This document shows positions 16,073 to 19,157 of a DNA stretch of 64,000 bases, one piece after another; position 1 is the first letter of the stretch; every line of letters begins with the position of its first letter. The position numbers and the translations under genes were made by a program. The stretch is from Fidelibacterota bacterium (lineage in GTDB: Bacteria > Fidelibacterota > Marinisomatia > SCGC-AAA003-L08 > TS1B11): positions 283,897 to 347,896 of the forward strand of contig CP070638.1 of the NCBI GenBank assembly GCA_020354025.1, given 5' to 3'. Under the pieces are notes generated by a model. The model was not told where the DNA came from. It saw only the letters and a list, made by a program, of their open reading frames with translations, and did no database searches.

Positions 16073-16327
16073 AGGCACTCCTGCCTCATGCAATGTTATT
16101 CAAAGTATCCGGTTTTACCGGGCCCCTTCATAAGGCCCGATTGCTCTACAAGCTTTCAGGATCAAATGCACAATGGAATGCAGCGTAGAAACAAGGATTA
16201 ATATGCACAATATCGCTGGCTTGTTGTAAAGCGGTGAAGGTTAAGAATGATTTCGATGGTTTTCAAGCCCGTTTGCCGGATAACATCTTGTTTGATTCCG
16301 GCGCAAAGAGTTTTTAACTTGCTATCG
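16073..16327. other. divergent promoter region between the alpha-oxoamine synthase and arg leader
   Basis: About 250 bases. A possible plus-strand promoter is TTGTTG at 16221-16226 and AAGAAT at 16243-16248 with a 16-base spacer, which would start transcription about 70 bases before the leader ORF. A weaker alternative lies at 16292-16319 (TTGATT, TTAACT). Neither is strong enough to be sure. Confidence 0.3.
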
Positions 16328-16408
16328 ATGAGATCAGCGCTTCGACGTAGCAACAACCGGTTCCGTGCGACTTCAGCCGATAGTCGCTCACGGCCAGACC
16401 GCGTCTAG
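16328..16408 (+). CDS. arginine-rich leader peptide of the argGH operon
   Basis: A 26-codon frame, ATG at 16328 to TAG at 16406-16408. Eight of 26 residues are arginine (positions 2, 6, 7, 11, 13, 20, 22, 25), using five of the six Arg codons (AGA, CGA, CGT, CGG, CGC). It ends 106 bases before argG, whose product makes the arginine precursor argininosuccinate. The frame overlaps strands 1 and 2 of the attenuator hairpins described separately. The Shine-Dalgarno site is weak (AAAGAG at 16305-16310). It is better spaced for an in-frame TTG at 16319, which would add three codons. The role I infer is sensing charged tRNA-Arg by ribosome stalling; the peptide itself probably has no other function. 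Confidence 0.8.
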   Translation: MRSALRRSNNRFRATSADSRSRPDRV

Positions 16409-16464
16409 CTGGTATCACCAGAAAAAGACTGACTAGGCCCTGAGCGAACCGCTTGGGGCTTTTT
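16363..16464 (+). promoter_or_regulatory. transcription attenuator with mutually exclusive hairpins upstream of argG
   Basis: Three competing pairings can be drawn by hand. (1:2) CCGTGCGAC at 16363-16371 pairs with 16383-16393, nine pairs with a two-base bulge. (2:3) CGCTCACGGCC at 16385-16395 pairs with GGCCCTGAGCG at 16436-16446, ten of eleven positions, plus T84-A47. (3:4) 16435-16446 pairs with 16450-16461 to give the terminator. Strand 2 is shared by the first two structures and strand 3 by the last two. A ribosome stalled on the early Arg codons would mask strand 1, free strand 2 to pair with strand 3, and prevent termination. A ribosome reaching the stop codon would favour the terminator. 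Confidence 0.82.
16435..16464 (+). terminator. intrinsic terminator in the argG leader (attenuator terminator)
   Basis: A 12-pair stem (three G-T wobbles) with a three-base loop, AGGCCCTGAGCG / CGCTTGGGGCTT, followed directly by a T-rich run (TTTTATTT). It lies upstream of argG on the sense strand with no gene ending there except the leader peptide, so its natural reading is conditional termination of the arg transcript. Confidence 0.85.
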
Positions 16465-16514
16465 ATTTGACAGCGTCGTCCCTCTGCCATCAGGTAATTA
16501 AGGAGGTGGTGTTT

Positions 16515-17777
16515 ATGAAGGAAAAGGTCAAGAAAGTGGTCCTGGCTTATTCAGGAGGACTGGATACCTCGATCATAGTTCCCTGGCTTATCGACAACTA
16601 CGGCTGTGAAGTCATTGCCTATGCGGCCGACCTGGGCCAGCAGGAGGATTTCGCGGCGGTTAAGCGCAAGGCCTTGGAGACGGGTGCTTCCCACGCCGTA
16701 GTGGAAGACCTGCGGGATGCGTTCCTCGTGGACTTTGTTTTTCCTACGCTGCGGGCAGGAGCCATCTATGAGCGCAAATACCTGCTCGGTACCAGTATGG
16801 CCCGGCCCCTTATTGCCCAGCAGCAGGTGAAGGTGGCTGAAGAGTTCGGTGCCGATGCCGTCGCTCACGGGTGTACCGGTAAAGGAAACGACCAGGTCCG
16901 GTTCGAGCTGACTTATATGGCCCTTAATCCCAAGCTGAAAATTCTAGCTCCGTGGAGGGAATGGGATATCACCTCGCGTGAGGACGCTATTGACTACGCC
17001 CGGGATCATAGTATTCCCGTCAGCGCGACTGTTGAGAAGATATACAGCCATGATGAGAATATCTGGCACGTCAGTCACGAGGGCGGTCCGCTCGAAGACC
17101 CCTGGCACGAAATGGACGAGGATTTGCTGAAATGGATTAAGCCGATCAACCAGACTCCGGACCAGCCCGAATACATTGAGCTCGATTTTAAGCAGGGTAC
17201 TCCCGTATCTCTTGACGGTAAGGAGCTGGACCCGGTCACCTTGGTAGAGACCCTCAATGCTTTGGGTGCCAGGCATGGTATCGGCGTGGTGGATATGGTC
17301 GAGAACCGGAGGGTAGGGATGAAGTCCCGGGGTATACATGAGACACCCGGCGGCACTATCATCTATACAGCCCACCGCGAGCTGGAGGCCCTGACCCTCG
17401 ATAAGGCCTCTCTGCAATACAAGGACGTGATCGCGGAGAAGTACGCCGTCATGGTCTACGATGGTGAATGGTTTACGCCGCTGCGGGAGAGCCTGGACGC
17501 CTTTGTGGATACCTTCCAGAGCTGCGTCACCGGTACGGTGCGCTTGAAGTTGTTCAAGGGGCACTGCCTCATTGCGGGACGGAAATCGCCCTTCTCACTC
17601 TATCGGGAGGATTTCGCCACCTTTGGCAAGGACGATGTCTACGACCAGAGCGACGCCGAGGGCTTCATCAACCTGGTTGGCCTGCCGTTGAAGGTGGAGG
17701 CGCTCCTGGCCGAGTTCGGCGTGAAGAAGGGTAAATACCGGGCGCCCGATTACTTCCGCACATTCAAGAGGGATTAA
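16515..17777 (+). CDS. argG: argininosuccinate synthase
   Basis: Joins citrulline and aspartate with ATP to make argininosuccinate, the penultimate step of arginine synthesis, in the cytoplasm. The PP-loop ATP site is [11 protein letters not shown] at about residues 10-20. Other family marks are [13 protein letters not shown] near 116, the [12 protein letters not shown](I/L)W segment near 170, and [11 protein letters not shown] near the C-terminus. The start at 16515 is fixed by an AGGAGGTGG ribosome site eight bases upstream; the length of 420 aa is normal. argH follows three bases after its stop. Expression is probably controlled by the arginine attenuator just upstream. Confidence 0.96.
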
Positions 17778-17780
17778 ACT

Positions 17781-19157
17781 ATGGCTGAAAAGGTCTGGCA
17801 GAAACGCTTTTCCCAACCCCTGGATCCCCGGGTACATGACCTGAATCGCTCCCTGGGCTTTGACAACTGGCTGGCACCGTATGACCTGCAGGTCTCAACC
17901 GTATGGGCCAGAGCCCTGAACCGGTGCGGCCTCCTTAGTGAAAAGGATCTGAAGGCTATCCTGCAGGGACTGAAAGATATCGGAGCCGAGTTTGAGCAGG
18001 GAGAATTCGAGTTGCACGAAGCAGATGAGGACATCCACATGGCCATCGAGCGGCGGCTGGGTGAGCTCATCGGCGAACCGGCCCGGCGGCTCCACCACGG
18101 CCGCAGCCGCAACGACCAGGTAGCCACCGACCTGCGCCTTTACGCTCTGGATCATGCCGGTAAGATCCGCCAAGCCCTGCGCGAGGTTATCACGGCGCTG
18201 GTGGAACTGGCCGGAGAGCATACCGGCACGCCTTTTCCGGGACACACCCACCTGCAGCAGGCCCAGGTCCTGTCGCTGGGACACCTGCTGCTGGCCCACG
18301 CCTGGAGCCTGAAATCGGATAATGAGTTCTTGGATCGTGTCAAACAGGTGACTTCGGTCTGTCCCCTGGGATCGGCGGCACTGGGGGGGTCGACGGCCCC
18401 GGTGGACCGCGAATGGATCGCCAGCGAACTGGGATTCGCCGCTCCTTCGGATAACAGCGTCGAAGCGGTGGCTTCACGGGACTTCGTCATGGACCTGCTC
18501 TACGGGCTCTCCCGAACGGGCGTGCACCTCAGCCGTCTGGCCGAGGACTTTATCCTGTGGAACAGCCAGGAGTTCGGCTTTGTAACCCTGGCAGACACCG
18601 TTGCCACGGGGAGCAGCCTCTTGGCTCACAAGAAGAATCCCGACATGTTCGAACTGATCCGCGGCAAGAGCGGCCGACTGGTAGGCAACCATACCGGCTT
18701 CCTGGCCACCGTCAAAGGCCTGCCTTCGGGCTATAACAAGGACCTGCAGGAAGACAAGGAACCGCTGTTCGACTCGGTGGATACCGTCCTGCAGCTGCTC
18801 CCGGCCCTGGAAGTCACCTTGCGGGGAGTCACGTTCAATGTTGAACGGATCGCAGCGCAGCTCTCGCCCTATCTGAAGGCCGAACGCATCGTCCAGTACC
18901 TGACCGGGCGGGGCGTGGCCTTCCGTGAGGCCTACGGCATAGCTGGTAGCCTGGTCAAGGAGGCCGAGTCCCAAGCAGTCGCCCTGGAGGACCTGCCTGT
19001 AAAGGTATTTCAGAAAGCCTCTCCGTCCTTCGAGGAGGACATCCTGACGGTCCTGGAATCGGACTGGGAAATCCCCGCAGAGGGCGTAATGGGGGGGAGC
19101 AACCGAAAGTCGGTTGAGCAGCAGCTAAAGCAACTGCGGGACTGGATAAAACGCTAG
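17781..19157 (+). CDS. argH: argininosuccinate lyase
   Basis: Splits argininosuccinate into arginine and fumarate, the last step of arginine synthesis. The fumarase/aspartase superfamily signature GSSLLAHKKNPD lies near residue 275, preceded by HHGRSRNDQVATD near 108 and the catalytic-region TPFPGHTHLQQAQ near 151. Length 458 aa is standard. Three bases separate it from argG, so they are one operon. Its last ~45 codons are echoed by a broken second copy at 21441-21584. Confidence 0.96.
   Translation: MAEKVWQKRFSQPLDPRVHDLNRSLGFDNWLAPYDLQVSTVWARALNRCGLLSEKDLKAILQGLKDIGAEFEQGEFELHEADEDIHMAIERRLGELIGEPARRLHHGRSRNDQVATDLRLYALDHAGKIRQALREVITALVELAGEHTGTPFPGHTHLQQAQVLSLGHLLLAHAWSLKSDNEFLDRVKQVTSVCPLGSAALGGSTAPVDREWIASELGFAAPSDNSVEAVASRDFVMDLLYGLSRTGVHLSRLAEDFILWNSQEFGFVTLADTVATGSSLLAHKKNPDMFELIRGKSGRLVGNHTGFLATVKGLPSGYNKDLQEDKEPLFDSVDTVLQLLPALEVTLRGVTFNVERIAAQLSPYLKAERIVQYLTGRGVAFREAYGIAGSLVKEAESQAVALEDLPVKVFQKASPSFEEDILTVLESDWEIPAEGVMGGSNRKSVEQQLKQLRDWIKR

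Follow-up and report, generated by a model that had tools for sequence, protein, structure and literature searches.

One question raised by this locus is how the arginine genes argG and argH are controlled in a bacterium whose genome yields no match to ArgR, the repressor that is the textbook control of bacterial arginine genes. The window analysed here, i.e. the whole stretch of 64,000 nucleotides from a Fidelibacterota genome, carries a short, arginine-rich reading frame and a terminator ahead of the two genes (Table 1). Our comparisons and folding calculations indicate that this element is very probably a ribosome-mediated transcription attenuator that senses the supply of arginyl-tRNA and controls argGH.

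Table 1. Features of the argGH leader region, in window coordinates
Feature	Position	Strand	Remarks
Candidate promoter, TTGATT-N17-TAACTT	16292-16320	+	Ends 7 nt before the leader ATG
Leader peptide ORF	16328-16408	+	ATG 16328 to TAG 16408; 26 codons plus TAG; 8 Arg
Strand 1, as proposed in the preliminary description	16363-16371	+	Pairs with strand 2 in the minimum-energy fold; conservation unsupported
Strand 2 (GTCGCTCACGGCCA), putative 5′ half of the antiterminator	16383-16396	+	Pairing, covariation, folding
Strand 3, terminator 5′ arm and predicted alternative partner of strand 2	16435-16446	+	
3′ arm of the intrinsic terminator (strand 4) with its T run	16450-16464	+	
argG Shine-Dalgarno sequence (AAGGAGGTGG)	16500-16509	+	Read from sequence; outside the terminator stem
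argG, argininosuccinate synthase	16515-17777	+	NCBIfam equivalogs NF001770 and TIGR00032
argH, argininosuccinate lyase	17781-19157	+	NCBIfam TIGR00838

The leader frame translates as MRSALRRSNNRFRATSADSRSRPDRV, followed by the stop codon. A preliminary description of this DNA had counted eight arginine codons of five of the six types among its 26 codons, and a recount agrees (AGA, CGA, two CGT, two CGG and two CGC). Given the base composition of the window leader alone, the probability of at least eight arginine codons in 25 is 0.006, which is weak for a 64-kb search. This figure is what speaks for a chance arginine-rich frame lying over the ordinary terminator of a neighbouring gene. Against such a coincidence, the gene upstream of the leader is on the opposite strand, and the device recurs before argG at more than 35 loci in two phyla, AT-rich genomes included; the comparative data refute it and leave it a negligible probability. 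An unbiased scan of both strands of the window for arginine-rich small ORFs followed by a terminator returned the argG leader element as its sole match.

Arginine codons 20 and 22 fall on CGCTCACGG, an RNA sequence of strand 2 that is conserved, and may not be sensors; the sensor codons are therefore more likely 6-7 (16343-16348) and 11 and 13 (16358-16366). These are the early codons that had been proposed for stalling, and that part of the proposal remains the likelier one; the role given to strand 1 alongside them is unsupported. Arginine first appears in the window leader at codon 2; a ribosome stalled there would leave everything exposed, and this counts against the model; the start codons of the leaders were picked among alternative starts.

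Behind the frame, a stem of 12 pairs (16435-16446/16450-16461) is followed by a T-rich tail, forming an intrinsic terminator (16435-16464) as had been claimed, and NCBIfam assigns the two genes behind it to argG and argH. The reported pairing of strand 2 (16385-16395) with strand 3 (16436-16446) at 10 of 11 positions is reproduced on recounting. The window leader folds better than its shuffled versions (z = -2.46). A hairpin between strands 1 and 2 had also been proposed. It is present in the minimum-energy fold, but it does not rise above codon-shuffled controls (54/200 as good) and is not conserved: in the closest relatives the 1:2 pairing is no stronger than in codon-shuffled leaders. Strand 1 was rejected as a conserved element, since its pairing is at chance level and it is absent as a conserved feature in relatives. 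Such a hairpin, the pause and protector hairpin of the trp type, is not required in every attenuator.

The window is from Candidatus Neomarinimicrobiota (Marinimicrobia). An arginine-rich leader and a terminator are present at 7/7 readable argG loci of its family, and a check for relatives that keep argG without the frame and covarying stems found none, every readable member having both. One genome, G002, has two argG copies with the leaders MMRSDRRHSQLRRRGTETMVRSRAG and MQEDRRRYRIRRNKLHQEFRSREDCT, each followed by a terminator. The copies lie on contig C1 at 192776 and 2609104 (L003 and L009) and are 83% and 81% identical to that of the window. Leaders with terminators also precede argG in G008 (MIDQLRRSINRRRASLATGRLREGCS), G004 (MINIHTAPDRLRRRAAGVRRTGRYAM) and G009 (MLRTLPTMVEFSRRRSRLSAGTGTLL). 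In G007, argG is the third gene, behind two that we read as proB and proA, and the leader MKPTLRRVHRRTFPTNPAGRSRVDCL and its terminator precede the first gene. This element, at L100:5559-5693, heads a proB-proA-argG operon, so that the proline genes would fall under arginine attenuation. The count of seven leaves out G005 and G006, where a contig ends or the start of the operon is missing; in G005 the terminator is visible despite the unreadable leader region.

The arginine clusters of the relatives' leaders match those of the window leader in position, and between relatives the arginine codons differ synonymously while arginine itself is retained. This pattern bears on whether the product is an arrest peptide, i.e. 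an arginine-rich nascent chain that stalls the ribosome by binding free arginine or ornithine inside it. Leaders of the arrest type include the fungal arginine attenuator peptide and bacterial SpeFL. There are thus precedents for arginine-containing leader ORFs as sensors of arginine or ornithine, e.g. orf34/speF of Salmonella (PMC6386406). An arrest peptide needs a conserved sequence, whereas here only arginine content, the spacing to the stop codon and the parts paired in the RNA are kept, and no NCBIfam leader matches. Searches of NCBIfam, Rfam and phage records gave no match for the leader. Moreover, if plentiful free arginine were what stalled the ribosome, a biosynthetic operon of this layout would be regulated in the wrong direction. 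We regard arrest as highly unlikely.

The attenuator reading is supported by the relation between leader and terminator. Summed over 18 leaders, the pairing of strand 2 with its own strand 3 amounts to -322.6 kcal/mol, compared with -240.7 ± 12.0 for swapped partners, and 0 of 20,000 permutations were as good. Among the five closest members, 5 of the 14 pairs between strands 2 and 3 carry changes in both partners, and 88.6% of cells pair, whereas sliding the partner gives 20-44%; the strand segments of this five-member comparison were cut and registered by hand. By these measures leader and terminator coevolve. Some of the terminators in the partner-swap and folding tests were entered by hand after inspection.

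This coevolution also bears on whether the leader acts through translation, mRNA stability or Rho in place of intrinsic termination, as the Salmonella speF leader does by means of Rho and RNase G (PMC6386406). Our locus has a strong intrinsic terminator, and there is coevolution between the leader and the 5′ arm of that terminator; the Shine-Dalgarno sequence of argG lies outside the terminator stem. Action by such other routes is extremely unlikely.

Equilibrium folding of the full leader did not separate the states, therefore we used ribosome-masked folds that end before strand 4, with the ribosome placed either at an arginine pair or at the stop codon. In these in silico folds, 2:3 pairing was higher with the ribosome at an arginine pair than with it at the stop codon for 30 leaders out of 35, and lower for a single one. 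For the window the effect is partial, with a 2:3 value of 0.82 when the ribosome is on the arginine codons and 0.53 when it is at the stop codon. When the first RR is taken as the stall site, the mean 2:3 difference is 0.31, compared with -0.02 ± 0.05 when leaders are shuffled and 0.20 ± 0.04 when terminators are swapped. In the folding model, the switch depends on co-transcriptional order, because at equilibrium the terminator is favoured in most states; this and the partial effect in the window weigh against the attenuator reading.

The proposed sequence of events is as follows. RNA polymerase would start at or just before the leader ATG, with a ribosome behind it. When arginine is ample, the ribosome would reach the leader stop codon and cover part of strand 2, leaving strands 3 and 4 to pair and transcription to stop before argG. 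When charged arginine tRNA is short, the ribosome would wait at the early arginine codons (6-7, 11-13) with strand 2 free, and 2:3 pairing would form before strand 4 is synthesized, allowing argGH to be transcribed. Transcription start, translation of the leader, stalling, termination or read-through and arginine as the signal are all parts that we infer. The core claim of the preliminary description, ribosome-mediated attenuation of argGH through arginine codons, is nevertheless supported by leaders, terminators, 2:3 covariation, masked folding and the absence of ArgR.

We favour a version with three strands, where strand 2 would be blocked by the ribosome itself once it is at the stop codon, because the 1:2 pairing is no better than shuffled and because of where strand 2 is placed: close to the leader end in almost every clade, and overlapping the stop codon in many of the Anaerolineae. 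If this version is true, an untranslated leader would lead to read-through, the opposite of the trp type.

The candidate promoter would place the start of the transcript. TTGATT-N17-TAACTT has one match in the window and 0 in 100 shuffles, and a similar promoter-ATG layout is readable before the leaders of four relatives' loci (L002, L003, L009 and L100). A generic sigma-70 scan of the window did not call this promoter, and a search of the window's own genome for the layout gave 5 matches against 3 for a reversed-pattern control, i.e. no enrichment. If the promoter is real, the leader ORF would be leaderless. Promoter motifs of Bacteroidota-like form (TTGG ... TAnnTTtG) lie upstream of the leader ATG at L086-L090 and L071; they stop some 8-10 nt short of it, which hints that the leader mRNAs are leaderless there too.

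The device extends well beyond the family. Three further Marinimicrobia families have RR or RRR leaders and terminators before divergent argG genes, e.g. MLNNRRNNRQNRRRSNHMEGHR, MTQINISLINIRRRHPQRQGTGV and MVERRRQVRRSRTPRQNWRFRGIL, and RR or RRR leaders with terminators precede argG in many Anaerolineae (Chloroflexota), e.g. MNIGTMPTSETRRRTDERSDPASG, MTVVFFANLLVIRRRLTKKPDPQSG and MRTGVIARFIRRRRTDSQSGTWDHA. A scan that ignored position and covered 796 kb, counting both strands, returned 24 matches; 20 lie immediately before argG and one precedes the proBA-argGH operon. The argG of the window is 60-67% identical to those of Anaerolineae and only about 45% identical to those of other Marinimicrobia families, which suggests that argG has been transferred between phyla. 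In the AT-rich family f14, two loci (L080 and L085) have a lysine-rich short frame with few arginine codons before the terminator upstream of argG, perhaps an eroded arginine leader.

This breadth is relevant to a translation-independent RNA switch, be it a T-box, an arginine riboswitch or a protein-bound antiterminator, over which an arginine-rich frame happens to lie. A terminator with an antiterminator would by itself suit many types of switch, and arginine genes of Firmicutes can carry T-boxes (PMC1262725). Against this, there is no Rfam match up to E = 1, and the frame, its arginine codons and the spacing from arginine run to stop codon recur while the RNA sequence varies between clades. 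A switch of this kind is, to our judgement, very improbable.

Attenuation in the family appears to act on argGH only (plus proBA in G007), because neither argF nor the LysW-type cluster yielded a leader. No leader was found for argF, which mostly follows hslU, or for the LysW-type cluster with its argC-like gene. That cluster (L225:2238-7357, on contig C1 of G000 at about 718-723 kb) contains LysX, the argC-like gene, LysZ, a LysJ-like and a LysK-like gene. Since this cluster is present and a search found ArgJ absent from the family, the LysW carrier may serve in the first steps towards arginine.

The distribution of ArgR is complementary to that of the leader. The ArgR C-terminal domain (PF02863) is absent from the window's genome and from all 11 family genomes, in a search where 8 of 14 controls were positive. 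Most of these genomes are metagenome assemblies, where a single missing ArgR could reflect incompleteness; that of the window is a single contig of 95% completeness. ArgR is found in 23 of 244 Marinimicrobia genomes. In the 22 genomes that have ArgR and argG on one contig, ArgR ends 35-140 nt before the argG domain, therefore argR is directly upstream of argG in 22/22. This adjacency is seen in families f23, f27 and f29 (e.g. L130 and L131). Among 61 Marinimicrobia genomes with a readable argG, none has both leader and ArgR, 19 have the leader only, 22 have ArgR only and 20 have neither. ArgR thus occurs in 0/19 leader-bearing argG genomes and in 22/42 that lack the leader (Fisher p = 3e-5, uncorrected for shared ancestry). 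At five loci of the 'neither' class (L052, L058, L066, L067 and L068), argG directly follows a gene that reads in translation as hisI-like, an odd pairing of histidine and arginine genes. ArgR was also absent from 120/120 sampled Anaerolineae genomes.

In the papers we searched, which included few from subscription journals, leader attenuators are described for other amino acids, and none of these papers has an attenuator with Arg codons ahead of an operon for arginine biosynthesis. One paper has arginine only under T-boxes (PMC1262725), another leaves arginine unmentioned (PMC2965389) and two more contain no such attenuator (PMC8632094, PMC8079986). Eight leader peptides are listed for Streptomyces lividans, none of them for arginine (PMC8079986, PMC7298713). 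An arginine attenuator on an arginine operon, found in two phyla and exclusive with ArgR, is therefore likely to be newly described here. We also lean, with some reserve, towards a broader proposal: that arginine leader attenuation is a major unrecognised control of argG where ArgR is missing, that argG in Marinimicrobia has either an adjacent argR or a leader as its control and never both, that the leader arose on non-orthologous argG genes, or passed from one such gene to another, in two phyla or more, and that it works with three strands, reading through when untranslated. An arginine attenuator in two phyla, mutually exclusive with ArgR in one of them, would extend the classical amino-acid attenuator to a pathway believed to lack it. 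It would also offer a natural experiment on how a protein repressor and an RNA attenuator take each other's place, and a readout of arginine limitation for mostly uncultured lineages.

How does the argGH device compare with known systems? Attenuation itself is classical, as in the trp, his, leu, ilv, thr and phe operons. Like those leader-peptide attenuators, the device has a short ORF rich in codons for the product, an intrinsic terminator before the first gene and a predicted antiterminator that uses the 5′ arm of the terminator. It differs in that arginine would be sensed, strand 1 is not conserved and the hosts are Marinimicrobia and Anaerolineae. The fungal arginine attenuator peptide is likewise an upstream ORF tied to arginine synthesis, but it is eukaryotic and translational, and free arginine acts on it through a conserved arrest sequence. 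The arginine T-boxes of Firmicutes and ArgR share a physiological task with the device. However, a T-box binds tRNA without translation, and the argGH leader has no Rfam T-box match (E up to 1); ArgR is a DNA-binding repressor and is absent from the leader-bearing Marinimicrobia.

Two further comparisons concern the leader itself. In the leaderless leader peptides of Actinobacteria and in trpL of Sinorhizobium meliloti (PMC8079986, PMC7298713), the ATG is at the 5′ end of the transcript, as predicted here; the start is shown there by RNA data, and here it is deduced from promoter spacing. In the Salmonella speF leader (orf34/SpeFL), tandem arginine codons sense arginine via ribosome pausing, but what this leader controls is ornithine decarboxylase; it acts by way of Rho, translation and RNase G and has no intrinsic terminator (PMC6386406). 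SpeFL also has a conserved HIRRT core before ornithine decarboxylase (PMC6386406), whereas the window leader lacks an NCBIfam match and precedes argG. By its sequence and in silico features, the argGH device would thus be classed as a leader-peptide transcription attenuator, and not as a T-box, a SpeFL-type leader or a case of ArgR control.
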